In this document: piece by piece, positions 841 to 17,435 of the stretch
Numbering within the stretch: position 1 is the stretch's first letter
How the letters are laid out: each line of letters starts with the position of its first letter
Program-made: the position numbers and the translations under genes
Notes under the pieces: model-generated
Seen by the model: the letters and a program-made list of their open reading frames with translations, nothing else
What the model was told of the DNA's origin: nothing
Databases searched by the model: none
Assembly (NCBI RefSeq): GCF_900156625.1
Contig: NZ_FTOB01000001.1
Span: forward strand, 992,001-1,056,000
Direction of reading: 5' to 3'
DNA: 64,000 nt
Source of the DNA: Zobellia uliginosa
GTDB taxonomy: Bacteria; Bacteroidota; Bacteroidia; Flavobacteriales; Flavobacteriaceae

Positions 841-850
841 TATCTTAATA

Positions 851-1657: not shown

Positions 1658-1660
1658 GAT

Positions 1661-2221: not shown

Positions 2222-2239
2222 ACTACTTTTTTTAAATGG

Positions 2240-2968
2240 TTATATGCGTAACTGTTGAAATTCCCACTCAAAGGGTTTACCTAAAGACTGGATTGTTTTT
2301 AAGTGGTCTAACTCAAATTTTTTTAAGGTTTCCTCATATTCACGCTCATCGTCTTCATTGCGGGTTTCGGTTGTGATTTTCAGTGTTTTATTTTGAAAAT
2401 CGATGCTATAGTTCATTTCATCGCCCGATACCCTTTGGACGACACCTTTCTTATATTCGACCAATTCAAAAGCTCTATTTTGAAACCTGAAAATGTATTC
2501 GTGGGAAGACCATGTGGTACATTCGCGACATGGCCATATATAAAACTCAATTTGCAAATCTCCATTTGGAAGAATTTGAAGCCCTTTAAAAGGTTCTTCC
2601 ATCGTGGGTGTATTTTGGTTAATGATAAACGCGTTGGATTGAAGTACTTTTTTGAATTTTCCATTGCGTTTGCCAAAGTAGATACCCAATACCCTCGGGT
2701 TAATGTGTAGCGTATCGCTATCTGAACCGTCTCTGTAGATATATTTTTTCTCTATGGGACTTTCGATCGCAAATACGATGTCTTTATAACCGTCTCCGTT
2801 TAGATCTCCTGAAGCTTTTGACAAAATTTTATAATTGGTCGGGATTATATTTTGCATCGACCTTCCCTTGGCGGGCAGCTCCGACAGCATAGGTTCACTT
2901 TGGGCGTAAAACACCTGAACCAAAAAGAATGCCATCAAAAATGCTATGTCCCTAAAATTCATTTCCAA
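2240..2968 (-). CDS. Secreted FG-GAP-like protein, function unknown
   Basis: A 242-residue protein with an N-terminal signal peptide (hydrophobic to about residue 20, cleavage probably after 'VFYAQ'). Residues about 55-66 hold 'GDLNGDGYKDIVFAIE', a DxDxDG calcium-binding loop of the FG-GAP/VCBS-like type, seen once rather than in a full propeller. There is a 'CREC' pair further on. Its start codon overlaps the stop of the lipoprotein gene upstream by 10 bp; a second ATG two codons later would shorten the overlap to 4 bp and is equally good. The overlap argues for translational coupling. No enzymatic motif is seen; a periplasmic or surface role is inferred only from the signal peptide. Confidence 0.75.
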   Translation of the reverse strand: MEMNFRDIAFLMAFFLVQVFYAQSEPMLSELPAKGRSMQNIIPTNYKILSKASGDLNGDGYKDIVFAIESPIEKKYIYRDGSDSDTLHINPRVLGIYFGKRNGKFKKVLQSNAFIINQNTPTMEEPFKGLQILPNGDLQIEFYIWPCRECTTWSSHEYIFRFQNRAFELVEYKKGVVQRVSGDEMNYSIDFQNKTLKITTETRNEDDEREYEETLKKFELDHLKTIQSLGKPFEWEFQQLRI

Positions 2969-4842
2969 TTTGTTTTCAACGCCAATTCATTGTTTTGATA
3001 CACGTAAATGACATTTTTGTTGGTCCTAAGCGTGTCTTCTGAACCAGGCTTTAGAATCACTTCTTCAGATTTGAGGGCGAAAACAAGGCTACCTTCTATT
3101 TCATTTATCTCTAAAACATCTGTCAAATAATTATCCAAATTTTCATCATAGGGTTCAATGTCAAGGGTTCCCATAGACTTCAGGTTTCCGTTTTCAAGAA
3201 TAAAAGCCTCACCTCCAAAGGGATATTCAAATGCCATTTGACAAATAATAATGACTTTGTCCGATGCGTTGCTTTTATAAAAATGGGGCTCAAATAGATA
3301 GGCATCACCTATACCTTTTGATCGGTATACTATTTTGTTGGATGCATCCAACATTAAAAGGCGGTCGCCCCAATCCGTTTCGGTATCTGGGGCTACGGTT
3401 CGTCCGTTTTCTGGTTTATAGTTTCCTGCTGCTATTCTGAATGCCTCCAACTGATAGGCGTGATCTACATTAAATCTGTCTATGTGAATGTCCTCCAATT
3501 TTTCTGGATCGTACTCGGAAAATAAAATGGCCCCAGAATCATGTTCGGTATACGTACTTCCATTGAATTTCAAGACATTGTTTTTAACATGAAAGAATTT
3601 TTCTGTTTGGCATTCCCCATCATTATCTTTAAATATCTTGGTTTCGGTTATCTTGTTGTTTATTAGAATATCAAAATGGTCATTGGTCTTCTTAGTGCTC
3701 ATCACCACCGCTTTTTCTTCATCTTTAAATCTTCCGTCACAATCCCCATCCCATTCTCCACGATTCATGGCAACGGTATAATTGGCAAGCACCTTGGTCA
3801 AACTATCTTTTGATTTCATGAAAAGGGACAGTGTTTTATTTTGGTATGGATTGACCCTTGAGTGTCCGAAGTAGGAAACGTACAAGCCGAAAGCCACTTT
3901 ATTTTCAGTAATCTCAAATAAATTTGGGGCAATCTGAATTTCGTTTAACTCAATGGCATCAGAAATCCATTGGTTGGTCTGGTGACTTTCAAAGTACTTG
4001 TTCATTATTTTTCCAGAACGGTTGTCCGCAATAACAATGTGGCTGTTGAGATCAAAATACTGTTCGCCTTCATCCACGACTTCTGGGATGACCACAATGC
4101 TTTCATCTGGGTTTTCTGGATTTACTCTAGTGGCAATTAAATCGGTCTTTGTTTGCATCCAATCCAAATTCAGGTCCGTTAAAACGCCATTGATCAGCGC
4201 AAAATTTTTAAAGGAATCGTTCAATTTTTTGGCATCTATTTTTATAATGGTGCCATTACCCCGAATTTCATATTGAATTTCTTCTACTTCTTTGGTGTTG
4301 CCCCAAAATATTTTGTTTACCGTTAGTTTGCTTTCGCTAATTCGGGAGACTGTCCTGGACATGCCTTCGGCTATTTCATCGAAAGCTACTTGTTTGTGAT
4401 CTATGATGTTCCCCTCCGTATCATAATTGATTATAATCGTCTCCATTTCATGGTCCCCGTGTTGAATGGTTGCAACAATGGTGTGAAAATTTGTATTCAC
4501 AGGTATCTTATAGATGGTGATTGCCCTGTAATTATGACCTTCCGAATTAAAATCAGGATAGATTTGGTCCAGTTTCAAAGCTTTGGCATCTACTTCATCA
4601 TAATCATCTTCATCGATAAAACTGTCAAAATTCGTGTCTTCGATGTGTGGCAATTTTTTAGTTTGGCTGTTGGCAATTACTTCGGCAAAATCTAAATGCA
4701 CGCTCTTAGGTAAGGTGTCCAAAGCCGTTTCAATGATTTCAACGGCGCCTTGGGTTTCGATCTCCGGTTCTTTATTCGTTTTGGGGCCTTGGCCACAGGA
4801 GATTGTAAGTACTAGTAAGGCTATGTGATATTGAATTTTCAT
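2959..4842 (-). CDS. Large lipoprotein of unknown function
   Basis: A 627-residue protein beginning with a lipoprotein signal, lipobox 'LTISC' with Cys16, followed by a Lys/Glu-rich linker. Near residues 67-80 it has 'DTNFDSFIDEDDYDE', an EF-hand-like acidic loop, and around residue 365 'DGDCDGRFKDEE', also calcium-loop-like. The rest is a long beta-rich sequence without a motif I recognise. It is the second largest protein of the 1-10.9 kb cluster and overlaps the gene downstream by 10 bp. A 49-bp gap separates it from the membrane protein upstream. Its envelope location follows from the lipobox; its function is unknown. Confidence 0.72.
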   Translation of the reverse strand: MKIQYHIALLVLTISCGQGPKTNKEPEIETQGAVEIIETALDTLPKSVHLDFAEVIANSQTKKLPHIEDTNFDSFIDEDDYDEVDAKALKLDQIYPDFNSEGHNYRAITIYKIPVNTNFHTIVATIQHGDHEMETIIINYDTEGNIIDHKQVAFDEIAEGMSRTVSRISESKLTVNKIFWGNTKEVEEIQYEIRGNGTIIKIDAKKLNDSFKNFALINGVLTDLNLDWMQTKTDLIATRVNPENPDESIVVIPEVVDEGEQYFDLNSHIVIADNRSGKIMNKYFESHQTNQWISDAIELNEIQIAPNLFEITENKVAFGLYVSYFGHSRVNPYQNKTLSLFMKSKDSLTKVLANYTVAMNRGEWDGDCDGRFKDEEKAVVMSTKKTNDHFDILINNKITETKIFKDNDGECQTEKFFHVKNNVLKFNGSTYTEHDSGAILFSEYDPEKLEDIHIDRFNVDHAYQLEAFRIAAGNYKPENGRTVAPDTETDWGDRLLMLDASNKIVYRSKGIGDAYLFEPHFYKSNASDKVIIICQMAFEYPFGGEAFILENGNLKSMGTLDIEPYDENLDNYLTDVLEINEIEGSLVFALKSEEVILKPGSEDTLRTNKNVIYVYQNNELALKTNWK

Positions 4843-4891
4843 TTAATGCCGTTTATGGTTTATATAAATCCACTGTTTTTAGTTTCTTATA

Positions 4892-5233
4892 CTATATTAC
4901 GTCAATGACTTTTTCGAGTAAATAATGCACTATGGAAACGAGTACAGTAATCATTAGCAGTACTGCCAAACGGATAACCGTCCTTTTCGGGTTGTTTTTT
5001 AGTTTCTTTCGTAGGTAAAAAATATCTAACAACACGAAGCATAATGCAATGGCGCTCCCAACCCACAGACCAACTTGAATCATCCCTATATCATAAAATA
5101 GATGTAGCAAATAGCCCAATCCTTCTTCGCTTACCGTATTGGCTCCTAAGACCAAACGCATATAGCCAATGCCTATGAACAACGACAACAGCGTCCAAAA
5201 TAGATAGGCCAATATGTATTTTAAAATTCGCAT
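4892..5233 (-). CDS. Small three-helix membrane protein
   Basis: A 113-residue protein with three predicted membrane segments (about 5-27, 47-70 and 87-105) and a basic cytoplasmic loop 'LRKKLKNNPKRT' between the second and third. It abuts the lipoprotein gene upstream with no spacer (start at 5233, previous stop at 5234), so the two are certainly co-transcribed and probably co-translated. I do not recognise the family. It could anchor or help assemble one of the neighbouring lipoproteins, but nothing in the sequence shows this. Confidence 0.68.
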   Translation of the reverse strand: MRILKYILAYLFWTLLSLFIGIGYMRLVLGANTVSEEGLGYLLHLFYDIGMIQVGLWVGSAIALCFVLLDIFYLRKKLKNNPKRTVIRLAVLLMITVLVSIVHYLLEKVIDVI

Positions 5234-6406
5234 CTATAACATTTCTTTCGTGCAAACAGTGTTTTTTTCAACTTCATCGGGCATCCCCTTTAGTTTCTCA
5301 AAAAAATGGGTGTCGGCCATATTTAGTCCTTGCGCTACATCGCATACATAGATAAAAGCATCTTTTTGATTGCTGCTTCGGGTTCTGTAGACCGAATTGG
5401 TCAGTATCCAACTATTCTTTTTAAAGGCTATGTGATGGTTGGCCTCGTTTAGTCCGCCATCAGGAAAGGCAGTTTTAATGAAAAAGCCATCGGGTTCTGC
5501 GACCACATCAACAATTTGATTGCCTCCATCTTCAGAAAAATTGGTGGTTTTTAAAGCGAATTGGTATGCTTTCCCTTCATTTGTAAAGAGCAATAGTTCG
5601 TCTCCTTGATAAGGCCCTGCACTTACTATTTTATCGACTATGCCATCGTTGTTGATGTCAATATCCCTGATAAAAAAGTGCTCGTTTTCCATGTAATCCG
5701 ATAAGGTGTAGGTGCCATTGGTTCGGTCATCTGGAAATGGGTCCGGATTTTCATTGTCATCAAAAAACGCTGTTTCAAATAAATCTTCTAAAATCTGTTT
5801 TTTCGAAGTAGTTAAATGGGATGCAAAATCAGCATCAAATTTTGGATGTGGCCCGTCAAAGAGAAAGAATAGCACCGATTTTGCCTTTTCGTTACTTAGC
5901 TCGTTTATCAGGTAATATTTTTTGTATTCCCTTAAATAGTTTAGCACATGATGTTGAAAGTAGTTGACCCCATCTGCTTCCCATTGTCCGTTCTCACAAA
6001 TACGGATAATGTTTTTTTCATAACTAGGGTATTTGTTGGTTCGCAGCAGATAAAACAAGTATTCGATATAATGTACACTGTGTTCGTAAAGTTCATGGGG
6101 AGCGTCATTTGGTGTATCCCAGCCAAAATAGCTTTGAAACTGTTCAAAATCTTGAGGAAACTGCCGTAGAAATTCTTCTTCATCCTTATCTTCCATGGAT
6201 TTATACAGGTTTAGGATGCTGATTTCCATTGGACTTTTTTCTTGAGTCTCAGCTGGAGCTTCCCATTCGTCCACGTTTAAGTTTTCTGAAGCTTCCATAA
6301 AGAGGGCATTCACCGAATCTTTAGCTTTTTGCTCTTTTTCAACGCGCTTGTTCTCCTGGCCACAAGACAGTAATAAGAGTGCTAGAAATACAAATTGAAA
6401 CTTCAT
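5234..6406 (-). CDS. Lipoprotein with EF-hand-like loop
   Basis: A 390-residue lipoprotein with lipobox 'LLLLSC' (Cys15) and an acidic/charged linker after it. A calcium-loop-like motif 'DIDINNDGIVDKIV' lies in the second half, which is the same DxNxDG pattern as in the neighbouring 242- and 627-residue proteins. The remainder is beta-rich with no recognised catalytic residues. The start codon overlaps the stop of the gene upstream as ATGA, so translation is probably coupled. Function unknown; the shared loop suggests that the secreted proteins of this cluster have related folds. Confidence 0.7.
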   Translation of the reverse strand: MKFQFVFLALLLLSCGQENKRVEKEQKAKDSVNALFMEASENLNVDEWEAPAETQEKSPMEISILNLYKSMEDKDEEEFLRQFPQDFEQFQSYFGWDTPNDAPHELYEHSVHYIEYLFYLLRTNKYPSYEKNIIRICENGQWEADGVNYFQHHVLNYLREYKKYYLINELSNEKAKSVLFFLFDGPHPKFDADFASHLTTSKKQILEDLFETAFFDDNENPDPFPDDRTNGTYTLSDYMENEHFFIRDIDINNDGIVDKIVSAGPYQGDELLLFTNEGKAYQFALKTTNFSEDGGNQIVDVVAEPDGFFIKTAFPDGGLNEANHHIAFKKNSWILTNSVYRTRSSNQKDAFIYVCDVAQGLNMADTHFFEKLKGMPDEVEKNTVCTKEML

Positions 6407-7020
6407 TTTACACGTTTTGTTTTAGGATAAATACCATTGGAAAAAATATTCTTTAGGCTATCGGCTTTGAAGAATTTACCTTCTTTGAAATAATTGATTT
6501 CGCCACAGTATAAGGTTGAATCATTTAGGCATGGGTCATAATAAAACTCTGCCATGCGGTAATCCCGGTACATACCCAGTTCTTCGCTTACAAAGCCCCC
6601 AAAATCTTCTTCATGGTCAATAAAATAGCCCGTGCCAGCTTCCCCAATAAAACCAAATGTCGTTCCCCCGTATTCATAAAAATGAATCCCATTTTCGCCG
6701 GTATACGAAAGTGGTTTTCCGGTTTTATGCTCTGTCCGTAGGTGCACCTTTATTTTTTCTTGTATGGCCTTCTGTACTACGGAATAATCTTTATCCGGAT
6801 ATTTTACCAAATACAAATTGGGATATACGTTTGACTGAATAAACCGCATATCCTTAAAGAAGAAGTGGTGGATTACCAGTCCCGTCGCACCAAATACCAA
6901 CACGGCCAAAACTGCCTGAACCCGTCTTTTGCTTTTTAAGGTCCACTTGAAAAACCTAAAGGCAAGGATCAATAGCAGAATTGCTACAATAACCAGTATG
7001 GTAATGACTAGTATGAACAC
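6403..7020 (-). CDS. Membrane-anchored protein of unknown function
   Basis: A 205-residue protein with two hydrophobic segments at the N-terminus (about 2-24 and 36-55) separated by a basic loop 'KWTLKSKRRVQ', followed by a soluble domain of about 150 residues rich in Tyr, Gly and Phe. Two cysteines in the C-terminal part ('DPCLNDSTLYCGE') may form a disulphide if the domain is periplasmic. It overlaps the downstream lipoprotein gene by 4 bp (ATGA). I do not recognise the family; the sequence supports only an inner-membrane protein made together with its lipoprotein neighbour. Confidence 0.66.
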   Translation of the reverse strand: MFILVITILVIVAILLLILAFRFFKWTLKSKRRVQAVLAVLVFGATGLVIHHFFFKDMRFIQSNVYPNLYLVKYPDKDYSVVQKAIQEKIKVHLRTEHKTGKPLSYTGENGIHFYEYGGTTFGFIGEAGTGYFIDHEEDFGGFVSEELGMYRDYRMAEFYYDPCLNDSTLYCGEINYFKEGKFFKADSLKNIFSNGIYPKTKRVK

Positions 7021-7051
7021 AACGTTGGCTTATTTTTGATATTAAAATGGC

Positions 7052-8191
7052 TCAATGGCTTTTTGGATTATTAGGAAAATGAACATTTACTTTATCTATC
7101 TCAACGGTATACAATGGGTTTTGCATGAAATCTGCACTCTGATGTGCAACCCGGATCAAGTACCCTCCCTTCTTTAATTTTTCTCGATATTGACCATGCA
7201 ATTTTCCCTTTTTGTTGAGGTATTCTTCCATGGTGAAAAAACCATTGTTTTCTAGCACGGAGAAACGGAAATCCATACCCTTTATCTTTGACTTCATACG
7301 GATTGAAACTTGGGCATCTTCCTCCAAAAAGAACAAGAAAAAGGTAGCATTGGCATAAAAGGCATCGGTAAGGGAAGAATAGGATTGAGGCTCATCAATA
7401 GTTACAGCATTTGCGTAAAAAGAGGGCTCCACAAAGTTGATGATTTGATTTTGCCCATTTTTATTAGGTTTTTGATACGAGTACAATCCACCTTTGAACA
7501 TAAATCTTAAAACGGGATTTTTTTTCTTTAAGTCTATAGCATAGCTGATTTTTGTTGGATATATGGTTTTGTACCATTGATTGTCGGCATCTAAACCATG
7601 AGCATATGATACATGTTCCAGGTAAGCATTTTTAGTATTGATTTCGATTGGATAAACACTTTCCAACACGTAGTCTATATTTCGAAAGTCCTTTAGTTCT
7701 TCGTTGATTTTTTCTTGTGTTTCGCCTTGAAACATATAAAAACGGGTCATAAATCGTCCGTTTTTCTTAAAAACCCAATTTTCAACACCCATCTCGTTTT
7801 GAATTCCAAAATGGATGAACTTTCCTTTTTCTGCTTTATAAAGAGGTTTTAGGTCCGCTGTTCGGTTGGAGCAGCCCGCGCATTCCGCTTGAATAAAATT
7901 TGCTAAAATTGATGTTGACTTTCTCCAATCGTCTAAAAGCACGATTTCTTTTTCTTCAAGCAAATCAGAAACTGATTTTGAACCATTCCCATTCGTGATT
8001 TCTTGAAATGGATACATTACGGAATCCAATGTCTTAAAAACTACTTTTTCTCCAGAAGTTGGCACTAATGCTTTACATGAAACAAATAATAGGGCAATGA
8101 ACAGCATAGCACTAAACTTTATTAAGAATGTGCCATGCTGTGAAATATTATATTGTGGATCCATTGATCCTTTCAGGTTTACCTGTTTCAA
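7052..8191 (-). CDS. Probable lipoprotein, function unknown
   Basis: A 379-residue protein whose hydrophobic stretch ends in 'LLFVSCKAL', a good lipobox with Cys39. The N-region before it is unusually long; an internal ATG at residue 10 ('MDPQYN') gives a more normal signal peptide, so the true start may be at 8164. A pair of cysteines ('QAECAGCSNRT') sits near residue 105. The C-terminal region ends in 'PLYTVEIDKVNVHF', beta-rich. No family is recognised. It lies between the membrane protein downstream (31 bp) and the HtrA-like protease upstream (25 bp) and is part of the same transcription unit. Confidence 0.62.
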   Translation of the reverse strand: MKQVNLKGSMDPQYNISQHGTFLIKFSAMLFIALLFVSCKALVPTSGEKVVFKTLDSVMYPFQEITNGNGSKSVSDLLEEKEIVLLDDWRKSTSILANFIQAECAGCSNRTADLKPLYKAEKGKFIHFGIQNEMGVENWVFKKNGRFMTRFYMFQGETQEKINEELKDFRNIDYVLESVYPIEINTKNAYLEHVSYAHGLDADNQWYKTIYPTKISYAIDLKKKNPVLRFMFKGGLYSYQKPNKNGQNQIINFVEPSFYANAVTIDEPQSYSSLTDAFYANATFFLFFLEEDAQVSIRMKSKIKGMDFRFSVLENNGFFTMEEYLNKKGKLHGQYREKLKKGGYLIRVAHQSADFMQNPLYTVEIDKVNVHFPNNPKSH

Positions 8192-8216
8192 GTAATAATT
8201 TTTGGCTTTCGAAGCA

Positions 8217-9281
8217 CTATTTGCTATAATGTGTCATTTCCGCTCCAAAATCGTTTACAAATGTATTGTCCAGTTCATCGGCTTTGGTGGCAAGCTGGGC
8301 CAGACATTCCAGAATTTCGTTTTTATGGTCGGAATACAAATCGCTGATATGGATGCGATACGATAAGTAGATCTGATTATCGGAAATAGACAATCGATGC
8401 GGGCCCATATCCGCGGTTAGGATGTACTCATAAATCTCGGCCAGATTTTTACGGGGCAAGTCGTTTAGGGGAGAGGTAGCGAATAGATAATTGTTGTCAT
8501 AAACGAATATGCGTATCTCTGCACTGCCTTGGTGAAAATACCAACGCTCCCTGCCCGACCTTGCCAAAATGGGATTGATATCCAGTTTGGATATGGCTTC
8601 CTCGACCTTTAGACTGAAATCGGAAAGTTCCATTTCTTCGAATAACTTTTCGTCTACAAGTGTGCCACAATTGGGGCAGTAATCGGTCTTTTCTTCAATA
8701 AGTCCCCCACAGTTGGAACAACCAAGGGTAAAGGCATCCGACATATCATTGACTATCGTTAATTCTTCCCGAAGGGTTTCCATGGGAATGGCAAAACCCA
8801 TGTTGTCGGCGTCGGAAAATTTTGAGGTCACAATCCCCATTAACTCCCCTTTTTCATTGATTACCGGCCCACCGCTATTTCCTGGATTGATGGCGGCGTC
8901 CGTTTGAATATAATAGTTACCTCCTATACTTTGGCGTGGATTTGAAACAATACCTTCGGTAACCGTAAATGGCATACCGTAAGGATAGCCCAAGACAATC
9001 ACCTTGTCTCTTGATTTTGATTCTGTCCGATGTTCAATTACCACCGTTTCAATAGGTTTTGGAAGGTCGTTAGCTCGCAAAAACGCAATGTCCTTTCCCG
9101 GATTTACATAAAGCACTTGGGTCAAGTACCTGTTTTTATCTTTCCCTTCCAGGCTAACGGTATGACAACCCGCCACCACGTGGTAGTTTGTGATGATAAT
9201 ATCATTTTTTTTGTTGTAAAAACCTGTGCCCGTTCCGTTTGCGGTATTTATCTTAAATACCGAACTTTCTATATTCTTCAT
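8217..9281 (-). CDS. HtrA-like serine protease with zinc ribbon, no signal peptide
   Basis: A 354-residue protein. Residues 1-180 form a trypsin-like S1C fold: His34 in 'NYHVV', Asp64 in 'KDIAFLRA' and Ser136 in 'NPGNSGGPV' make a complete triad. A zinc ribbon follows (C188-x2-C191, C202-x2-C205). The C-terminal ~130 residues end in 'KADELDNTFVNDFGA' and resemble a YbjN/CesT chaperone-like fold. No PDZ domain is present, unlike DegP/DegQ. No signal peptide or membrane helix is visible before the protease domain, so a cytoplasmic location is predicted, which is unusual for an HtrA relative. The gene stands 10 bp downstream of the 401-residue gene, which carries the same C-terminal motif. Protease activity is inferred from the intact triad; the substrate is unknown. 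Confidence 0.85.
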   Translation of the reverse strand: MKNIESSVFKINTANGTGTGFYNKKNDIIITNYHVVAGCHTVSLEGKDKNRYLTQVLYVNPGKDIAFLRANDLPKPIETVVIEHRTESKSRDKVIVLGYPYGMPFTVTEGIVSNPRQSIGGNYYIQTDAAINPGNSGGPVINEKGELMGIVTSKFSDADNMGFAIPMETLREELTIVNDMSDAFTLGCSNCGGLIEEKTDYCPNCGTLVDEKLFEEMELSDFSLKVEEAISKLDINPILARSGRERWYFHQGSAEIRIFVYDNNYLFATSPLNDLPRKNLAEIYEYILTADMGPHRLSISDNQIYLSYRIHISDLYSDHKNEILECLAQLATKADELDNTFVNDFGAEMTHYSK

Positions 9282-9291
9282 GATTCCTTGC

Positions 9292-10497
9292 TTAATTGAT
9301 TTTAAAGTTTGCCATGATCTTTTGCATGGCCGCCATGGATTGCTGCATTTGTTCGCCCATCAGTTTTGTAAGGTCCATACCGTAATCGGCATCCATAAAC
9401 GTATCTTCCATGATGGCTTGCATGCCCTTTAAAAGGATGGGAGCCGCTTGGCTCCATGGCAAATCACTGGCTTGTGATAGGGCGTCGGTGATGGGTTTGC
9501 TGATTTCTTCGTTCACCAAATTGTAAAAGAACATATTGTAAAAACAGGACTGTATAAGATTGGAAGCATCCTCGAATCTGGAGTTGGCGATCATTTCCTG
9601 CGCTTCTTCATAATTTTCTTGCCAATTTTCTCTGATGTTTTCCTTTTTTCCGCTGTATTTATAGGGAATAAAGGTTTCTGTCTGATAGAGGTCGGCCATG
9701 AATTGCTCCTTAGGGAGTTCTTTCAATTTTTCCAAGGCCGATTTTCCATTCAGCAATCGGTCATGAAATGGTAGCCTACCATCAAAAAGTCCGTCTATCG
9801 CCTTTTCCAATAGGGTACGTACATACCCTTGGGGCTCTGCATGAAACTCTATCTTTTTTAAGGTGATGTTCAAGGTGTACCATGCATTGTTTCCATGCCG
9901 TTTTTCCATGTATCGGTCAAATCGTTGTAGGCCATCCCCCAAAATTTTTAGATAATTATCGTAAGCTTCCTGTTTGCTGTTTTCTGGAAAAGGGCTTGTT
10001 TTTGGCTCTTGTATGTGGGCTGCACCAAATTTTTCTATAAACTCGTCGTCATAGCTATCTGCGTAATAGCATATTTCCCGAAGCACCCCATAGATTTTGT
10101 ACGGTTCACAAAGACTTATTGGACATGAAAAAGAAAAATACACCAAATGATTGTCCAAGACTATATTGGTCAAATTGAGCGGATACATTCTGAGTTCCGC
10201 CAATTTTCGCATCATGGGTACTTTTTTGGCATTTTTTATGTTCAAAAAAGGACATTTGATCAACAGTTCATCAGTTGTTTGAGTAATGGATACCACTACC
10301 GACCCATGGGGTATTTCGTAGGTGTCACCTTTTTTTTTGCCGGAAAGATGATTCCCGACATAATCCAATAGGGTAGGCACTACCTCGTTATATTGTTTAC
10401 TGTTAAAAAGAGCTACTGCCTCGTCCCATTTTTCATCCTGCCTTGTCGATGATTTTTTAGGATGTATTGGTGGAAAATACTTGTTGTTTTTATCCAT
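9292..10497 (-). CDS. Soluble protein with YbjN/CesT-like domain, function unknown
   Basis: A 401-residue soluble protein without signal peptide. Residues about 55-160 look like the small alpha/beta fold of YbjN or type III chaperone-like proteins: 'LLIKCPFLNI', then 'YYADSYDDEFIEKFGA'. The last motif matches the C-terminus of the adjacent protease (A-D-x-x-D-x-x-F-[IV]-x-x-F-G-A). The remaining 240 residues are helical and end in a Met/Gln-rich tail ('LMGEQMQQSMAAMQKIMA'). No catalytic motif is seen. The shared domain and 10-bp spacing suggest that it partners or presents substrate to the protease; this is inference. Confidence 0.72.
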   Translation of the reverse strand: MDKNNKYFPPIHPKKSSTRQDEKWDEAVALFNSKQYNEVVPTLLDYVGNHLSGKKKGDTYEIPHGSVVVSITQTTDELLIKCPFLNIKNAKKVPMMRKLAELRMYPLNLTNIVLDNHLVYFSFSCPISLCEPYKIYGVLREICYYADSYDDEFIEKFGAAHIQEPKTSPFPENSKQEAYDNYLKILGDGLQRFDRYMEKRHGNNAWYTLNITLKKIEFHAEPQGYVRTLLEKAIDGLFDGRLPFHDRLLNGKSALEKLKELPKEQFMADLYQTETFIPYKYSGKKENIRENWQENYEEAQEMIANSRFEDASNLIQSCFYNMFFYNLVNEEISKPITDALSQASDLPWSQAAPILLKGMQAIMEDTFMDADYGMDLTKLMGEQMQQSMAAMQKIMANFKIN

Positions 10498-10538
10498 TAT
10501 TGTTTTGTAATTAATTGGATTACATTGTATTATTAATT

Positions 10539-10924
10539 TTAGGCCGCTAAACTTTTAATTTTGCCCTCCAATTCCTCAAAGGCTTGCTGCTGCGATTTTA
10601 CCAAGACGGCCTGTTTTAGGGCTCCAGTGATCACTTCTAAGATGCTTCTGCGAGCCTTTACACTTTTCCCGAAATAGGCGTGCATTAGTTTATTGGGAAT
10701 GATATGGTTTACTTTCACCGTGTTTTTATTCACAAAAAGTAACTTAACGGCGTGCATGCCACTTTTTTAAGTACAATACATTGTGCCATTTGTCCGCTGT
10801 TGTCCGTGCAATGTTCCCAAACATCATATTCTTTTGAACACTCAAAACCGGATTCTTTTTTTAAGACTTCATAGAGTTCCTCTAAAGAATTGTATGGTTG
10901 TTTTATTTGAATTAAGTTCTCCAT
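10539..10924 (-). pseudogene. Interrupted small gene, about 128 codons, frameshift in A6 run
   Basis: Two overlapping frames look like one protein. The upstream half starts at ATG 10924 ('MENLIQIKQPYNSLEELYE') and ends early in 'KKVACTPLSYFL' with a stop at 10730. The downstream half begins in the next frame at 10757 ('MHAVKLLFVNKNTVKV') and runs to 10539. On the minus strand the joint is CTTAAAAAAGTGGCATGC. One extra A would read L-K-K-S-G-M-H-A-V and give a continuous protein that ends in a helical 'AFEELEGKIKSLAA'. Causes could be an assembly indel, a true mutation, or slippage on the A6 run. The family is not recognised. A further in-frame ATG at 10975 lies before the terminator stem and is unlikely as the start. 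Confidence 0.62.
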
Positions 10925-10950
10925 TGGTTGTATGATTTTGGTTATAAATG

Positions 10951-10981
10951 AAAAACCACAGATGGTTTTGACCATCTGTGG
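10951..10981 (-). terminator. Rho-independent terminator after the cadherin-repeat lipoprotein
   Basis: A perfect 10-bp stem, CCACAGATGG (10956-10965) and CCATCTGTGG (10972-10981), with a 6-nt loop. On the minus strand it is followed by TTTTT (10951-10955). It lies 14 bp past the lipoprotein stop at 10995 and 27 bp before the start of the next gene at 10924, so it separates two transcription units unless read through. Confidence 0.85.
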
Positions 10982-10994
10982 CGGTACTTTGTTT

Positions 10995-12686
10995 TTAAAA
11001 GTCGGTAAAAGACCGGATTGGCAATACGATGAAATTTGCAGTATTTTTAGGAAGGGCTATGGGAGCACTACCCCCTAAAAAAGCTATATAAGCATCATTT
11101 GCATTAACTTCTGTAGAAGTCCATACTGTACTAAAAAGGGCGCTTCCTCCATTGGCGAGTATCGTCGGTGCAATGTAATCGTCGTAGTTTATCGCTATTT
11201 CATTGAATTCATCCACACTTGGTAAAAACCAATCATCATAACCATTCCAATCCAAATTGGAAATAGTTAATGCGGCAGATGGAATACAACCTGCGGCAAT
11301 AATTGCCTCAGAATTGGTTTCTCCTGTTCCGATACCACTTCCAGAAGCCCCTGTTAGTATACCTGAACAACCCCAGGCGTTAACGGTTAGACCTGAAATT
11401 GCACAAACCAAGCCTTCACTATTGTTACTTGTAGGGTCTATCCAAAAAATAACACCACCATACTTGAATTCCCCAATCTCGTTCAAGTCATTAAGTTCTA
11501 CGAACGCATTGGCGGAAACTGTTTCGGTACCATTGCTTACCGAAATGGTGGCCAACATATTGGGGTTGGTTTCAAAATCGAAAAGGGTTTCATCCGCTAC
11601 GGACAATTCACCTGTATTTTGATCTATCGTAAATGCACCAGCCGGATTCTGGAACGTAATGGTATAGGTTACATTTGAACCACTGGCCTGTATGGTTCCC
11701 ACAACATCGCCATTGGAAGGGTTTTCATCTATGGTCAAATCCGTATTTGTGGCAGATACTTCGTCTACATCGTTTAGATTGATGGTGGCCGTGGCCGTAG
11801 CTGTTTCCGCACCATCTGTCACTGAAATTTCAGCTGTAATCACGGGGTTGGTCTCAAAATCGAATAGGTTGGGGTCAATTACCGTTAATTCTCCCGTAGC
11901 GGCATCAATGGCCATGGCGCCCATGGGTGATTGCGAGGTAAATGAAAACGCTAAAGTACTATTGCTGTTGGCCTGTACCGTTCCTAAAATCTGTCCGTCC
12001 GTTGGATTTTCATCAATGGAGACCGTAAGGTCTTGGGCCGTTACTTCAATTACATTCTCAAGGTTCACCGTAACGGTTACCGGATTATCTGCATCTTCAA
12101 TAGAAACGGTCGCTGTCAGTACAGGATTGGTTTCAAAGTCGAATAGCGCAGCATCCAATACGGTAAGTTCGCCCGAATTGAAATCAATACCCATAGCGCC
12201 GCTCGGTGTCTGGGACGTGATGGCAAAGCCCGAAGCATTGCCAATGGTCTGTAGACTGCCTATAACTTGCCCTTCGGCAGGATTTTCATCTATGGTCACT
12301 TCTAAATTCTGACCGGAAACCTCATTCACATTATTCAGGTTTATGGTAATGCTTGCCGAATTTTCAGCATTGTCCGCGGTAACGGTTGCCGTAATCGTAG
12401 GATGGGTCTCGAAATCGAATAAGGTCGCATTGGCTACAGTAAGTTCACCAGTAGAACCGTCAATACTCAAAGCTCCCGCAGGTGCTTGTGAGACGATATT
12501 AAAATTTGTGGTGGAAACATCGGTTTGTACGGTGCCCACGAGATCACCTTTTTGGGGATTTTCATCTAGGGTTGCCTCTAAATCCGACAGTGTTACGGTT
12601 ACAGCTCCATCATCATCATTGTTGCAGGCAACACTTAGAAAAAGTACACTTACGGCCAAGTAAATAGTTTTAAGTTTATTGTTCAT
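10995..12686 (-). CDS. Surface lipoprotein with cadherin-like repeats and DUF1566-like end
   Basis: A 563-residue lipoprotein, lipobox 'LSVAC' with Cys21, followed at once by 'NNDDD'. Acidic residues just after the cysteine act as a surface export signal in Bacteroidota. Residues about 30-410 hold four repeats of roughly 95 residues, each with 'DENP', 'GTVQ' or 'GSLQ', 'IDxxTGELTV' and 'LFDFETNP', typical of cadherin-like domains in which the acidic residues bind calcium. Residues about 415-563 ('YGGVIFWIDP', 'DDWFLPSVDEFNEI') match the DUF1566/Lcl C-terminal fold found in adhesins. A role in surface adhesion or matrix contact is likely but inferred. The repeats are similar at DNA level, which makes copy number prone to change. 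Confidence 0.86.
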   Translation of the reverse strand: MNNKLKTIYLAVSVLFLSVACNNDDDGAVTVTLSDLEATLDENPQKGDLVGTVQTDVSTTNFNIVSQAPAGALSIDGSTGELTVANATLFDFETHPTITATVTADNAENSASITINLNNVNEVSGQNLEVTIDENPAEGQVIGSLQTIGNASGFAITSQTPSGAMGIDFNSGELTVLDAALFDFETNPVLTATVSIEDADNPVTVTVNLENVIEVTAQDLTVSIDENPTDGQILGTVQANSNSTLAFSFTSQSPMGAMAIDAATGELTVIDPNLFDFETNPVITAEISVTDGAETATATATINLNDVDEVSATNTDLTIDENPSNGDVVGTIQASGSNVTYTITFQNPAGAFTIDQNTGELSVADETLFDFETNPNMLATISVSNGTETVSANAFVELNDLNEIGEFKYGGVIFWIDPTSNNSEGLVCAISGLTVNAWGCSGILTGASGSGIGTGETNSEAIIAAGCIPSAALTISNLDWNGYDDWFLPSVDEFNEIAINYDDYIAPTILANGGSALFSTVWTSTEVNANDAYIAFLGGSAPIALPKNTANFIVLPIRSFTDF

Positions 12687-12735
12687 GATTGTTTGGGTTA
12701 AATAAATTAATTTAATTGAGTAATAGGTTCGGATT

Positions 12736-13296
12736 TTAGTAGTCCATTTTAATTAATGAACCGTCTATTTTGTATGAAAAAGTAAAAGAAGTCCCCCCGT
12801 TTTCAGGCTGCAGTTTTACGATGTATTGGGCATCACTCAAATCACCGTTCTTTGGGTATTTGACAAAAGCCATTTCAAGTCGGGGGTTCTCGATGTCTTT
12901 CTCGGCCTTTAATTGCTCACTCGATTTTTCAACGAGTTCTCCTAATTTCCCAAGGCTGATTTTTTCACCCAATTGAAACATAAAATCTGCCGCCTTGGTA
13001 CCCTCTGGTATTTCCAAGGTTACTTCGGAAGTTTGCTTCCAATTGCCCAACGAGTAGGTCCATTGCCCCATTTTTAAAGATTCAGGGGCATCGGTTACCG
13101 TGGTCGAAATGCTATTACCGATGGATTCATTGTAAATGATAGTCAAATCCGTATAGTAGGCACTATCCCCAAATTCACTTTTCAGTTCTTTCTCAATGCC
13201 CGCAAAGCCATCGGCGTTGGCAGGTAGTTTTGCCGTGTCTCCTCCACAGGAAACCAGTGTTATCGCTATCATTAAAATTATCAACTGTATTTTCAT
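12736..13296 (-). CDS. Small lipoprotein of unknown function
   Basis: A 186-residue lipoprotein with lipobox 'ITLVSC' (Cys17) followed by 'GGDTAK'. The mature part is a mixed alpha/beta sequence with no cysteine and no motif that I recognise ('GIEKELKSEFGDSAYYTDL', 'EMAFVKYPKNGDLSDAQY'). It precedes the cadherin-repeat lipoprotein by 49 bp on the same strand and is likely co-transcribed with it. Location in the envelope follows from the signal; nothing in the sequence shows its function. Confidence 0.68.
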   Translation of the reverse strand: MKIQLIILMIAITLVSCGGDTAKLPANADGFAGIEKELKSEFGDSAYYTDLTIIYNESIGNSISTTVTDAPESLKMGQWTYSLGNWKQTSEVTLEIPEGTKAADFMFQLGEKISLGKLGELVEKSSEQLKAEKDIENPRLEMAFVKYPKNGDLSDAQYIVKLQPENGGTSFTFSYKIDGSLIKMDY

Positions 13297-13325
13297 TTTT
13301 ATGCTTTTTTTATGTTGATTGACTA

Positions 13326-13534
13326 TTACTCTTCAGCTCTTCCAAATAGAAAAAACAGTGCGCCACCTGCTAGAATCAATACTACCCTGAGCACCCATCC
13401 CGTGGTACTGCCCCAGCTATCTATCCAAGCAAGTAATCTGATGTTGTAATTAGAATTGACTAAAGGGTAGTAATTATGCCCATAGCTGCAAGTACAAGGC
13501 CTTTTTGGCCTAGTTTGGATTTGATGTTTTCCAT
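13326..13534 (-). pseudogene. Interrupted two-helix membrane protein, about 69 codons
   Basis: An ATG at 13534 opens 'MENIKSKLGQKGLVLAAMG' but meets a TAG at 13460-13462 after 24 codons. The next frame continues without a break from there as 'VNSNYNIRLLAWIDSWG', then 'TTGWVLRVVLILAGGALFF', ending '...FGRAEE' at 13326. One extra T in the minus-strand run ACCCTTTAG would join the two halves into a small protein with two membrane helices. A longer uninterrupted frame of 105 codons from 13643 exists, but its first half has poor composition (Pro, His, Cys rich) and is probably not coding. The family is not recognised. Confidence 0.5.
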
Positions 13535-13765
13535 TAAGATTTGATTTTAATATTTCTTGATAAGCACCATTGGAAAAGTGTGATTTTCGAAGAGGACTTA
13601 AGTAAGAAATGGTTTGGTCAGGGTAAAGATGGGGCAATGGCATTTCCTATGAAATAGCCAATCTATTTTCGCGAGCCGGGAATCATTATTCGTGCGAAGT
13701 AAGGAAATATGCGTTTTTGGAGAGATAGCTATTTCCGGTAATCTTGATCATTGGGGCAATAGTTC

Positions 13766-14503
13766 TCAATGACTATTGTATTTCAAAAAAGTCGTTATAA
13801 AAGCTTCCTTTTTTCTGGAGGAAACAGGAATTTTTTGACCATTCTTTAAATAGATGATGCCCGACTTATCGTATTTGTCTATGAATTTCAAGTTTACCAT
13901 GAAAGACTGGTGGGGCCGGGTGAAATTGACTTTTTCAAGTTTCTCCTCGTATTCCTTTAATGGTTTGGAAGCCACGTATTTTTTATTATTGGCCAAGTAG
14001 AATGTCGTATATCCCTTGTCGGATTCACAGTACAATAATTCTTGCAGGTTTATGACCTGAAAACTGTCGCTAAGCGAAAGAACCAAGGTGGCATCATCTT
14101 GATACCAAACCTTTTTTACCGTATTTATTTGTCTTTTTTGTTCGGTAATAGGTAAGGTCTTTATCTTTTTTAAGGCCAAATCCAATTCTTCAACGTCAAC
14201 AGGTTTTAAAAGATAATCTACGGCACCAGCCTTAAGTGCCTTCAAAGCATATTCTTCATAGGCGGTAATGAATATGGTTTTGAAGCTAAGGTGCTCGGTT
14301 TGGTCAAGAAAGTCGAATCCAGTACCGTCTGTGAGATTTATGTCCAGAAATATCAATTCTGGTTTACAGGCATTCGCGACCACAACGGCCTCCTTGACCG
14401 TAGCACATTCACCTATGATTTCTATATTGGTTTCAACCGTTTCCAAAAGATTTATCAAGCCTTTTCTAATATAGGCTTTGTCCTCAACGATAAGTGCTTT
14501 CAT
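13766..14503 (-). CDS. LytTR family response regulator
   Basis: A 245-residue regulator. Residues 1-120 are a receiver domain with the acidic pair E7/D8, phosphoacceptor Asp54 in 'IFLDINLTDG', and 'TAYEEYALKALKAGAVDYL' plus 'LKPVD' as the switch Thr/Lys region. Residues about 140-245 form a LytTR DNA-binding domain ('LQELLYCESDKGYTTFY', 'FTRPHQSFMVNLKFIDKY'). Its ATG overlaps the stop of the kinase gene by 4 bp, so the two are a cognate pair. LytTR regulators usually bind imperfect direct repeats; the targets here are unknown. The lipoprotein genes immediately downstream are candidates by position only. Confidence 0.93.
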   Translation of the reverse strand: MKALIVEDKAYIRKGLINLLETVETNIEIIGECATVKEAVVVANACKPELIFLDINLTDGTGFDFLDQTEHLSFKTIFITAYEEYALKALKAGAVDYLLKPVDVEELDLALKKIKTLPITEQKRQINTVKKVWYQDDATLVLSLSDSFQVINLQELLYCESDKGYTTFYLANNKKYVASKPLKEYEEKLEKVNFTRPHQSFMVNLKFIDKYDKSGIIYLKNGQKIPVSSRKKEAFITTFLKYNSH

Positions 14504-16752
14504 GAATTCTTTATTATTTTATAGGGAATGATCAAAGTAACTTTGGTTCCTTGCTCATTATATTTTTTTCTATCCTCGACAAATACGGATCCTGGCATGT
14601 TGAAATCTTTGGCCAAAAGGTTTAGCCGCTCACTGGTAATGGTGGTGGCCAACGACTTCTTTTTGGTATTTGTTTTTTGGAGCATGGCATCTATTCCAAC
14701 ACCATTGTCCGTTATGGCACAGCTTAGTTTTTTGTCCTTAAAAGAGAGGTGAACCTCTATTTCCCGATGTTCTTGATTAGTAGAAAATGCATGTTCTATG
14801 GCATTCTCAATAAAGGGCTGAATGAGCATGGGAGGAACCAAAAAGAGATTGATATTTATGTTTTCGTCCACCACCAAACTATAGTCATAAGGTGAATTGG
14901 CATCCATATTTTGTAAGATCATATAATTGTCTATGGCATCCAATTCTTGAATGAGGGGAACTATTTTGTCCCTTGAATTTTCTAGAACAAGTCGTAGTAG
15001 TTTCGAGAACTTTGATAGATAGGTAATTGATTTTTTCTCTTCTTTGTTCAAGATCATGCCCTGCAAGACTGAAAGCGAATTAAATATAAAATGTGGAGTC
15101 ATTTGCGAGCGCAATAACCTTTGTTCGGTAATAATATTTTGGTTTTTTACTTTAACGTTCTTGTATTTTTGATAGAACACCAAAGAACCTGACAGGATAG
15201 AGATAACCAAAATGCCGATAACGGCCCAAAGGTAATTTTGTTTGGTCTTTGCAAGGTCTTGTGAAGTGCTCATTACCGTTTTGGTAAGTTTTAATTCGCG
15301 TATACTAGCAGAATCCAATGCCTGCTTGTATTTGTATTCGTATTCCAACTGGGCAATTTTTTCGATATTTTCCTTATTAAAAAGGCTGTCGTTCAATAAT
15401 TTGAATTGCTGATGACTTTCAAGGGCTTTTTTATAGTTTCCCTTTGCTTTATATATGGTTGCCATTGTTTTGTATACCAATATTTGCTGAGGCAGAAGTT
15501 CTAGTTCATTTGCTATTTTTTTTCCGTTCTCGGCGTGTATTAGAGCATTAGAATAATCTTTGAGCGAAACATAAGTTTTTGCCAATCCAATATGGGCATG
15601 GCAGCTATAGATCTTATCCTCAATCGATTCACTTATCTCTAAACAAGCTTTATAATGTTTCAAAGCATTTTTAGGTTGATCCATTAAAAAGTACAAATCC
15701 CCAAGTTGAAAATAACCCCCACTTAATTCTGTTTTATCATTGATTTCTTTGCTAAGGTTTATAGATTTTGTCATATACAACAGGGCGTTTTCAAAATCTT
15801 TTAGATCTGCATAAACCGCACCCTTGTTGATCAATGTTCTGGAAATCTGTTTCTTATCATCTAATTCCCTATAAATATTTAGTGCAATATCTAGATGATC
15901 AAGTGTTTTGTCGTACTGTTTCAATTCATAATAAACCGCACTTATGTTATAAGAAGAAACGGCAATATCTTCCTTTTCATCATTTGCAATATGTATGCTC
16001 AAACACTTGTTAAAATAAGTTAGGGCTTCTGTATATCTACCTTGATTAAGGCAAATAGCACCAATGTTGTTTAAAATGTCCAAGTTTAATTTTTCCTCAC
16101 CTAATTGTTCACTTATATCAGCTGCCTTTTTAAACAGGTCGATAGCTTCATCAAAATTTCCTTTTCTGTACCTGGAGGTTCCAATTTGATTATACATATT
16201 TGCCTGAACTAATGAGTCACCATTTTTAATGCTTAGTTCAAGTACTGTATTATAAAAGTCGGCAGCCTTATCAAATTTACCGTTTAAGTATGCTATTTTT
16301 CCCAAAGATGTATAGGAAGCATAAATACAATCCGGGTCCTTCAGTTCCTTACATATTTCAAAGGCTTTAAGCGTATAGTTTTCGGCATTATCTCGTTCAT
16401 TGTTTCTTAAGGCATTGTTGCTTAATCTTAGTAGACTGTTTGCAGTTCCCTTTTTGTAATTAAGCTCTTTGGCCAAATCATAGGCTTCTTGAGCTTTTTC
16501 GTTGGATCGGTTTATATCTGCTGTAGAATAACTTTTAGAAAGCTCGATTAACAAATTAACTTTTGCAGTGTCTTTTTTGGTATGAAATGCCAATTCTTTC
16601 TTTAAGCTGTCTATTTTGATGTCCTGCGCCCTTATTGCGCTTGTGATTAGCAAAAAAATGAGAATAAAAATTTGAATAGGAGAATTTTGATTCCAAAAAA
16701 TCGACGTAATTCTATTGACCCCTATGTTGGCTATTTTACATAAGAAATGCAT
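14500..16752 (-). CDS. LytS-type sensor histidine kinase with TPR repeats
   Basis: A 750-residue kinase. A signal or anchor segment (about 26-42, ending 'AIRAQ') is followed by about ten tetratricopeptide repeats (residues 60-460) predicted to lie in the periplasm, a membrane helix at about 507-527, and a His_kinase domain with the phosphoacceptor His554 in 'MTPHFIFNSL'. The ATPase part shows the N box 'ENAIEHAF' and G box 'ITDNGVGID'. This is a common Bacteroidota architecture. TPRs probably bind a peptide or protein in the periplasm; the ligand is unknown. It is co-translated with the LytTR regulator downstream (4-bp overlap). Confidence 0.93.
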   Translation of the reverse strand: MHFLCKIANIGVNRITSIFWNQNSPIQIFILIFLLITSAIRAQDIKIDSLKKELAFHTKKDTAKVNLLIELSKSYSTADINRSNEKAQEAYDLAKELNYKKGTANSLLRLSNNALRNNERDNAENYTLKAFEICKELKDPDCIYASYTSLGKIAYLNGKFDKAADFYNTVLELSIKNGDSLVQANMYNQIGTSRYRKGNFDEAIDLFKKAADISEQLGEEKLNLDILNNIGAICLNQGRYTEALTYFNKCLSIHIANDEKEDIAVSSYNISAVYYELKQYDKTLDHLDIALNIYRELDDKKQISRTLINKGAVYADLKDFENALLYMTKSINLSKEINDKTELSGGYFQLGDLYFLMDQPKNALKHYKACLEISESIEDKIYSCHAHIGLAKTYVSLKDYSNALIHAENGKKIANELELLPQQILVYKTMATIYKAKGNYKKALESHQQFKLLNDSLFNKENIEKIAQLEYEYKYKQALDSASIRELKLTKTVMSTSQDLAKTKQNYLWAVIGILVISILSGSLVFYQKYKNVKVKNQNIITEQRLLRSQMTPHFIFNSLSVLQGMILNKEEKKSITYLSKFSKLLRLVLENSRDKIVPLIQELDAIDNYMILQNMDANSPYDYSLVVDENININLFLVPPMLIQPFIENAIEHAFSTNQEHREIEVHLSFKDKKLSCAITDNGVGIDAMLQKTNTKKKSLATTITSERLNLLAKDFNMPGSVFVEDRKKYNEQGTKVTLIIPYKIIKNS

Positions 16753-17000
16753 AATTGAAATAAAAAGATTGATTCGGCTGGTTTACTCATTTGCTTATTG
16801 GCTGAAAGGCTTGACTTAAAACAAAATACGGGTTTTTAATCTCCTTCAGAAAATATAAGCGTAATTTTCTTGGCGGTGGACTACGATCAATTTATATACG
16901 TAATGCTTGAATAAATATTTGCAAGGGCAGAATGTTTATTTGTTTCGTAACATGAAATCAATAAATTCTAGCACTTAAGCAAACCTTATCCCTAACTTTT
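16753..17000. other. Non-coding upstream region of the TPR kinase
   Basis: No convincing gene. This AT-rich stretch holds the upstream region of the kinase gene (start 16752) and merges into the repeat tract that begins near 17001. No good TTTG/TAnnTTTG promoter was found; a minus-strand GTATTTTG near 16823 is one base short of the consensus. Confidence 0.4.
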
Positions 17001-17377
17001 GAGCATGGTTTTCTGAGTGTCGTGATCGCGCCAGGATTACCTTCGGTGTTCCTTTTTTATCAATGGTGCAAATAGAAAACCATGGGCTGTCGCCCTGGTC
17101 CATTGTTTTTTTCCAAAACCTAAAACTTCGTTTTGGTTTTTCCATAAAACAAAGAACCATGCTCATAGGAGCATGGTTTTCTGAGTGTCGTGATCGCGCC
17201 AGGATTACCTTTGGTGTTCCTAGGCGCTCAATGTTGCAAATTGTAAACCACGAGCTATCGCTCTAGTTCTTCATTTTATTCCAAGATGACAAGACCCGTG
17301 GTCTTGCATCTTTCCATAAAACAAAGAACCACGCCCTAAGGACGTGGTTTTTAATTTAAAGTGATCGCGCCAGGATT
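17001..17377 (-). repeat. tRNA-linked tandem repeats, about 170-bp unit
   Basis: The 17-bp sequence GTGATCGCGCCAGGATT, which is the 3' end of the tRNA-Arg (T-stem and acceptor strand) plus one base, occurs three times: 17022-17038, 17190-17206 and, inside the tRNA gene, 17361-17377. Spacings are 168 and 171 bp. The two downstream copies share about 50 bp with few differences, then a diverged middle, then the string CCATAAAACAAAGAACCA leading into a hairpin. Hairpins are at 17156-17177 (ACCATGCTC/GAGCATGGT, perfect) and 17327-17349. The design resembles the repeats behind E. coli tyrT, each of which contains the tRNA 3' end. The copies are non-coding; short open frames across them have no protein character. 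Confidence 0.85.
17327..17349 (-). terminator. Hairpin just downstream of tRNA-Arg, probable terminator
   Basis: On the minus strand the RNA forms ACCACGUCC / GGGCGUGGU (one G-U pair) with a 3-nt loop, followed by CTTTGTTTTATGG. It begins 13 bp after the tRNA 3' end. The equivalent hairpin in the next repeat unit (17156-17177) is also followed by CTTTGTTTT, so the terminator itself is part of the repeated unit. Confidence 0.65.
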
Positions 17378-17435
17378 CGAACCTGGGACCGTCTGCTTAG
17401 AAGGCAGATGCTCTATCCAGCTGAGCTACGCGACC
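17362..17435 (-). tRNA. tRNA-Arg (anticodon TCT)
   Basis: A full cloverleaf is visible on the minus strand. The acceptor stem is GGTCGCG/CGCGATC (one G-U pair) with discriminator A. The D arm is GCTCAGCTGGATAGAGC, the anticodon arm TCTGC-CTTCTAA-GCAGA with anticodon TCT at 17399-17401, and the T loop TTCGAAT. CCA is not encoded. The gene reads AGA codons, which are common in the AT-rich genes here. It stands alone, with no protein gene close by on the same strand upstream, and its 3' end is repeated downstream (see the tandem repeat entry). Confidence 0.97.

Follow-up and report, generated by a model that had tools for sequence, protein, structure and literature searches.

The folded repeats behind tRNA-Arg(TCT) of Zobellia uliginosa reported here, which we call units, have their closest described counterparts in the tRNA-linked repeats (TLRs) of Escherichia coli. 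In the published account, TLRs are traced to a first description in 1978, with a function still unknown by 2021; they occur as 22 copies at ten loci, and the last 18-19 bp of each are those of the tRNA or rRNA gene in front of it (PMC8144298). That account deals with TLRs in E. coli and, where they are linked to 5S genes, in other Enterobacteriales as well. It places the three 5S-linked TLRs of E. coli (RrA/B/F) between two terminators, and reports read-through past T1, processing to RNAs of ~173 and ~115 nt, and interaction of these RNAs with Hfq and CsrA (PMC8144298). The published description of TLRs rests on position and the copied end, not on sequence homology.

Other described systems resemble the units in part. 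CIMEs are kilobases long. Together with accretion at tRNA 3' ends, they are the nearest concept for the DNA side of the units: the source describes CIMEs as decayed ICEs or IMEs that, like the units, have att-type repeats on both sides, lack an integrase and stand in tandem with integrase islands in one tRNA gene (PMC5704250). Unlike CIMEs, the units consist of about 155 bp of non-coding DNA with one conserved fold, and forms intermediate between an ICE or IME and a unit were not seen among the loci. Within Bacteroidota, the Arg-tRNA island of Riemerella anatipestifer (10K GI) provides an example of integrase action at Arg-tRNA (PMC6764341). This island shares its phylum and a tyrosine integrase with four islands described below, but it differs from the units in its length of 10 kb and its 12 reading frames, and the accessible part of its description mentions no structured unit. 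REP/BIME elements with RAYT are, like the units, short structured extragenic repeats, and they are characterized by a regular RAYT partner gene and a tagged hairpin.

The array in the window and in the genus

The window, the whole 64,000-nucleotide stretch of DNA that was analysed, carries the array on its minus strand. The features are as follows.

17361..17435, minus strand: tRNA-Arg(TCT) gene (ARAGORN, Rfam tRNA); the identity block repeated in the units is its last 17 nt, 17361-17377
17190..17360, minus strand: unit 1, 171 bp, with a tRNA 3'-end copy at 17190-17206; match to covariance model R1, 194.7 bits
about 17327..17350, minus strand: hairpin I of unit 1, a terminator-like stem on the tRNA strand, read off the sequence
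17022..17189, minus strand: unit 2, 168 bp, with a tRNA 3'-end copy at 17022-17038; R1 match, 179.1 bits
about 17155..17178, minus strand: hairpin I of unit 2, terminator-like, read off the sequence
about 17001..17021, minus strand: stub of a third unit, its first ~21 nt, cut by an insertion; the repeat begins at 17001
1..17000, no strand assigned: the part inside the window of a ~17.4 kb segment interrupting the third unit, placed by gene order against G004

The exact 17-mer GTGATCGCGCCAGGATT stands at 17022, 17190 and 17361, with spacings of 168 and 171, and the last of these is the 3' end of tRNA-Arg(TCT) itself. Read on the minus strand, the 17-nt terminus common to the tRNA gene and both full units is AATCCTGGCGCGATCAC. 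The units of about 170 bp, each with a 17-bp tRNA end and a terminator-like hairpin, that a first-pass annotation had seen behind this tRNA gene are confirmed. That annotation had counted three units; only two are complete (171 and 168 bp), followed by a 21-nt stub. Units 1 and 2 share 83% identity over 116 nt, and the 371-nt array folds 8.2 s.d. better than dinucleotide shuffles (z -8.2). At gathering thresholds Rfam returned tRNA only, in the window and in 20 further loci, and the sub-threshold matches over the window's units lie far under the family cut-offs. A 63-aa ORF over unit 2 was considered as coding and set aside, Pfam giving just one sub-threshold match. Elsewhere in the window, at 24613-24793, there is a tandem repeat of 93 bp (1.9 copies, 90% matches).

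The later part of the third unit lies outside the window at G000:C16:991519-991572, ~17.4 kb from the stub, beside a terminator that resembles the one behind the array of G004, another member of the genus. The intervening ~17.4 kb is missing from G004, where the next gene directly follows the array. No integrase look-alike was found by eye among the first 60 residues of the segment's frames of at least 90 aa, and Pfam found no integrase in eight of its reading frames. The scanned genes of the segment (window 1-17000 plus G000:C16:991573-992000) include LemA, trypsin-like peptidase, cadherin-like, TPR histidine kinase and LytTR regulator genes.

The first-pass annotation had likened the array to the tyrT repeats of E. 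coli. The likeness stood for the layout, a unit followed by a tRNA 3' end, and fell for the sequence: a covariance model of the units (R2, below) found nothing convincing at tyrT and gave 14.2 bits at rrnB. In our reading of E. coli K-12, the tyrT units have 178-bp spacing and a junction of ..GAGTAATCC plus the tRNA 3' end; units of the window end in ..GGTAATCC plus the tRNA 3' end. E. coli TLRs (tyrT rttR/tpr; rrA/rrB/rrF), like the units, lie directly behind a tRNA or rRNA gene and end in its copied 3' end, 18-19 bp in E. coli and most often 17 in Bacteroidota, and tyrT also shares the tandem copies. The rrnB unit has a spacing of 168 bp; it opens with a long hairpin and closes with an 18-bp copy of the 5S end, and so shows the same order of terminator, structured part and copy. 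By this analogy of layout, the units extend the TLR class to another phylum as a variant, without any claim of common descent.

We compared nine genomes of the genus, including the window's own (G000), by DNA search followed by base-by-base reading. Units follow tRNA-Arg(TCT) in eight of the nine, with one to three complete units per array. The expectation of the same layout in relatives therefore held, with units in seven of the eight other genomes of the genus rather than absence from them. G002, G005 and G008 have one unit each; G004 has two, as does the window's genome in addition to its stub; and G006 has three identical units and a remnant. In G007, one unit and a partial unit precede a Fic gene, and in G001 a unit and a partial unit are followed by a Fic gene, 33 bp of tRNA 3' end and then again a unit and a partial unit. 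The one empty site is that of G003. The G003 sequence after C74 of the tRNA is the G005 sequence after its last tRNA-end copy, and because the same sequence continues from both points, G005 and G003 are a clean pair of filled and empty site.

Several further arrangements were observed in the genus. The Fic gene (DUF4172 + Fic) lies within the unit array behind tRNA-Arg in two members (L037:3518-4962; L043/L047). In G007 (L043:5162-5408) the tRNA-Arg gene has one of the two allelic forms known in the genus and the distal copy of its end has the other, a mismatch that we take as a sign of exchange via the repeats. The window's genome has another unit ~0.9 kb behind its tmRNA gene (L045:3686-4800), with copies of the tmRNA 3' end on the unit's flanks and a small collagen-like reading frame in between. 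In G004, pieces of the tmRNA-linked region are scattered across more than 20 kb.

Units at the ends of tRNA genes

Beyond the genus, the units were searched for with two covariance models. R1, built from 12 genus units (eleven linked to tRNA-Arg and one to tmRNA), finds a match at E<=0.01 in 132 of 299 genomes of the family and at E<=1e-9 in 61 of 299, leaving 167 of 299 with no match at E<=0.01. R2, built from 64 units, matches 64 of 196 genomes drawn from the order, 81 of 198 from the class and 44 of 198 from the phylum at E<=0.001; these draws overlap and include family genomes, and the weakest matches, near E=1e-3, may be chance. The two strongest matches outside the class are one that abuts tRNA-Ser (L300) and one at a locus without a tRNA (L301).

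For position and structure we used the 146 best-scoring loci fetched rather than all matches, 90 from the family and 56 from the order or class. One place was counted twice (L117 and L205), which leaves 145 distinct loci, several of them from one genome. The unit abuts the 3' end of a tRNA (14 amino acids) or tmRNA gene in 109 of these 146 best-scoring loci, abutting being defined as a unit start at most 16 nt ahead of the gene end or 3 nt past it. Neither model was given tRNA genes, yet both contain the CAC start and the copied end. The adjacent genes are Arg (44), Ser (13), tmRNA (10), Val (9), Pro (9), Ala (4, one place twice), Phe (4), Leu (3), Met (3), Cys (3), Lys (2), Gly (2), Tyr (1), His (1) and Gln (1); the search itself accounts in part for the excess of Arg, since eleven of the 12 units behind R1 are tRNA-Arg units.

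The copied end belongs to the local tRNA. In 48 of 108 adjacent loci (one of the 109 was dropped for too little sequence), the last 12 nt of this tRNA are found again 90-300 nt downstream, with no more than one mismatch, and the ends of other tRNAs, used as a control, recurred in 3 of 2160 trials. The remaining 60 of the 108 have lost the copy or have it in decayed form. An identity block of exactly 17 nt is seen in 31 of the 48, and the block usually starts after the T-loop TTCG or TTTG. The Leu units, the Met unit L255 and the Phe unit L130 have their own A at nt 59 and a block from nt 60, and in the Ala units and the tmRNA unit L251 the block takes in the gene's own ACTCC.

The units form a large group of folded, non-coding inserts that occupy the ends of many different tRNA genes in one phylum, and they are apparently undescribed: a literature search, mostly of sources outside subscription journals, returned no description of such repeats in Bacteroidota. 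Could they have arisen by accidental tandem duplication of a tRNA end and its terminator region, through slippage or unequal recombination, with neither mobility nor function? Short direct repeats favour such events, and G006 has three identical units. Independent events would hardly give tRNAs of 14 amino acids, and tmRNA too, units that are related to one another, or produce the covariation across genera described in the next section, and we consider this origin very unlikely.

The predicted fold and its strand

Fold and terminator tests were made on 131 non-redundant units, 15 of the 146 having been dropped as redundant. The mean fold z is -6.07 on the tRNA strand and -5.42 on its complement, and the tRNA strand is the more stable in 119 of the 131. 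Hairpin I followed by a T-run is terminator-like in 127 of 131 units on the tRNA strand, against 2 of 131 on the opposite strand. Multiloops of three or more branches are predicted for 96 of 131 units versus 28 of 131 mononucleotide shuffles, and the motif ATTTGCA is exact in 51 of 131.

Covariation was assessed by setting each unit's 5' arm against its own 3' arm and against 15 arms of other units. The unit's own arms paired best in 102 of 131 units for hairpin I, 99 for hairpin II, 59 for the outer stem and 39 for hairpin III, where 8.2 are expected. The arms thus covary, into what is predicted to be a four-way junction, and the compensatory change first suspected from the stems of two units finds strong support over 131. 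In the predicted order of parts, a terminator-like hairpin serving the tRNA comes first, then the four-way junction, and then in many units a small hairpin that continues with its 3' strand into the tRNA-end copy. This terminal hairpin (GGAT..ATCC) spans the junction between unit and copy in many units, with a loop of varying length. In integron attC cassettes, too, the recombination point lies within a stem of one folded strand, where an IntI-type recombinase acts. Covariation of a unit with the T-stem strand of its own tRNA was apparent by eye and failed its test: in no more than 22 of 48 units did the own strand give better pairing than foreign strands on average.

A conserved fold of this kind could mark structured non-coding RNA genes, transcribed by read-through of hairpin I, released at the tRNA-end copy and acting as RNA, for example as a protein sponge or in regulation tied to tRNA synthesis. 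The first-pass annotation had likewise suggested that small RNAs or tRNA-end decoys might be released on processing. The covarying arms and the better folding of the tRNA strand (z -6.07 vs -5.42; 119 of 131) argue for such genes, as does the share of G-U pairs, 6.8% on the tRNA strand vs 4.5% on the other, but single-stranded DNA would give a strand bias as well. There is also precedent in the 5S-linked TLRs of E. coli, which are reported to be transcribed, processed and to interact with Hfq and CsrA (PMC8144298), and of which the rrnB member has the equal spacing and part order. On the other hand, the terminator-like hairpin stands before most of the unit, and a host function fits poorly with the patchy distribution (no match in 167 of 299 family genomes), the differing sets of tRNAs used per genome, the variable copy number and the absence from G003. 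We regard RNA genes as a tentative explanation, possible though rather doubtful. It is compatible with a DNA element bounded by att-type sites, because the fold lies on the tRNA strand in both, and these are the two leading readings.

Movement, integrase islands and a proposed mode of insertion

Two kinds of comparison bear on whether units stay in place. Among similar pairs of units from different genomes, 46 of 100 sit at the same tRNA, against 9% of all pairs, the count covering tRNA-labelled pairs from two genomes that align over 100 nt or more; inheritance in place is therefore common. Units at different tRNAs of the same genome can also be alike, as in G028 (Arg(acg) and Arg(tcg), 83%) and G189 (Met and Arg(acg), 79%). 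These two same-genome pairs among the fetched loci, together with the variety of tRNAs that carry units, indicate that relocation occurs as well.

Four reading frames that cluster together, from loci without an adjacent tRNA (L078, L104, L118 and L242), encode Phage_integrase and Phage_int_SAM_5 domains. Each of these integrase genes lies directly upstream of a unit and is oriented away from it. The matching gene end is found 27.2, 4.9, 18.1 and 7.7 kb upstream in the four island contigs; it is tRNA-Arg in three and, in G622, a tmRNA-like end that ARAGORN did not call. At its far side every island closes with nt 60 to C74 of that gene end in copy (in G076 the copy starts at nt 61, its first base differing), and the unit follows directly, so these four tyrosine-recombinase islands and the units share a tRNA boundary. 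A fifth island (L081), 7.5 kb with integrase-like fragments recognized by eye, lies between two nearly identical units; its repeat is longer, starting from the anticodon loop, and its boundary differs from that of the other four.

A gene family constantly beside the units was also sought and did not emerge, the inspected clusters being conserved neighbours, chance frames over units, GIY-YIG genes and, in four genomes, the integrases. The idea that units derive from decayed GIY-YIG genes is not supported; in the five tRNA-bearing loci inspected, no such gene lies inside a unit. GIY-YIG matches occur in 60 of 60 family genomes, with a tRNA in only 4 of 30 fetched loci. In these five loci, the gene is found on the 5' side of the tRNA, flanked by repeats of the tRNA 5' part, in L138 (oriented, 1100-1440), L161 (1340-1906) and L177 (1300-1810, tandem), 3' of tRNA-Asp in L172, and ~0.5 kb behind tRNA-His, past a unit-like stretch, in L175. 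L138 has one tRNA-Arg with a GIY-YIG gene on its 5' side and a structured unit on its 3' side. Twelve further fetched stretches carry GIY-YIG genes, mostly in tandem.

An HUH (Y1/RAYT) transposase might instead move the units as REP-like or IS200/IS605-like hairpin elements. A folded single strand and insertion directly after a short end (..CAC in many) suit this route, and one RAYT-like gene does lie beside a unit, in L083. This gene (L083:5370-6080), a Y1 transposase by motif, stands next to a displaced unit and has its own inverted hairpins, and these are separate from the unit, unlike the arrangement of REP/BIME elements. A RAYT motif was found in only 1 of 110 loci, by a simple motif scan that is insensitive and missed the integrases found later. 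To our knowledge, HUH insertion makes no 17-bp target duplication. Transposition of this type is in our judgement highly improbable.

The explanation that we favour, and to which we would give an even chance, is that the units are TLR-like inserts without an integrase, bounded by att-type tRNA ends, that enter tRNA 3' ends by site-specific exchange. A unit would consist of about 155 bp and a copied tRNA end, usually of 17 nt, with no integrase of its own, and would be bounded on both sides by the tRNA 3' part (nt 58/60 or so to C74). It would enter the tRNA 3' end through exchange at or beside the T-loop, with tyrosine recombinases of such islands as the probable catalysts acting in trans, and would behave like a very small cis-mobilizable element. 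Units may do little harm, because the tRNA end is restored and a terminator is supplied. Arrays would then grow and shrink as their tRNA-end repeats recombine with one another. The fold conserved on the tRNA strand may act as single-stranded DNA during recombination, or as read-through RNA.

Several parts of this explanation are directly supported: the bounding repeat, the presence or absence of units at a site in relatives, the variable copy number, the use of many tRNAs each with its own end, the terminator-like first hairpin, the covariation of the arms, and the boundary common to four tyrosine-recombinase islands. Other observations count against mobile inserts. A plain att site has no need of a four-way junction, and the varying loop length of the terminal hairpin also speaks against an att site. 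A 170-bp circle would be strained as double-stranded DNA. To these we add the 60 of 108 loci without a good copy, the extent of vertical inheritance, the longer block of L081, the reliance of unit movement on two same-genome pairs, and the window's two units, which had no match in phage and plasmid records.

The boundary shared with tyrosine-recombinase islands sets the units apart from E. coli TLRs; they also differ in their predicted four-way junction, their phylum and the many more kinds of tRNA at which they are found. A bolder extension, which we think improbable, is that Bacteroidota have a tRNA-anchored cassette system independent of integrons. Folded single strands with a four-way junction would be the substrates of tyrosine recombinases, exchange would occur at the T-loop, and tRNA and tmRNA 3' ends would dock both minimal cassettes and gene-bearing ones (Fic, islands), with the TLRs of E. 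coli as relics or analogues.

With more than 100 comparable repeats of conserved fold in a second phylum, the origin of TLRs becomes testable, including whether the copied tRNA end is a recombination site, an RNA-processing signal, or both. The boundary held in common with tyrosine-recombinase islands points to a concrete candidate enzyme class. If the units are RNA genes, they would represent a class of tRNA-coupled RNAs overlooked in the annotation of Bacteroidota.
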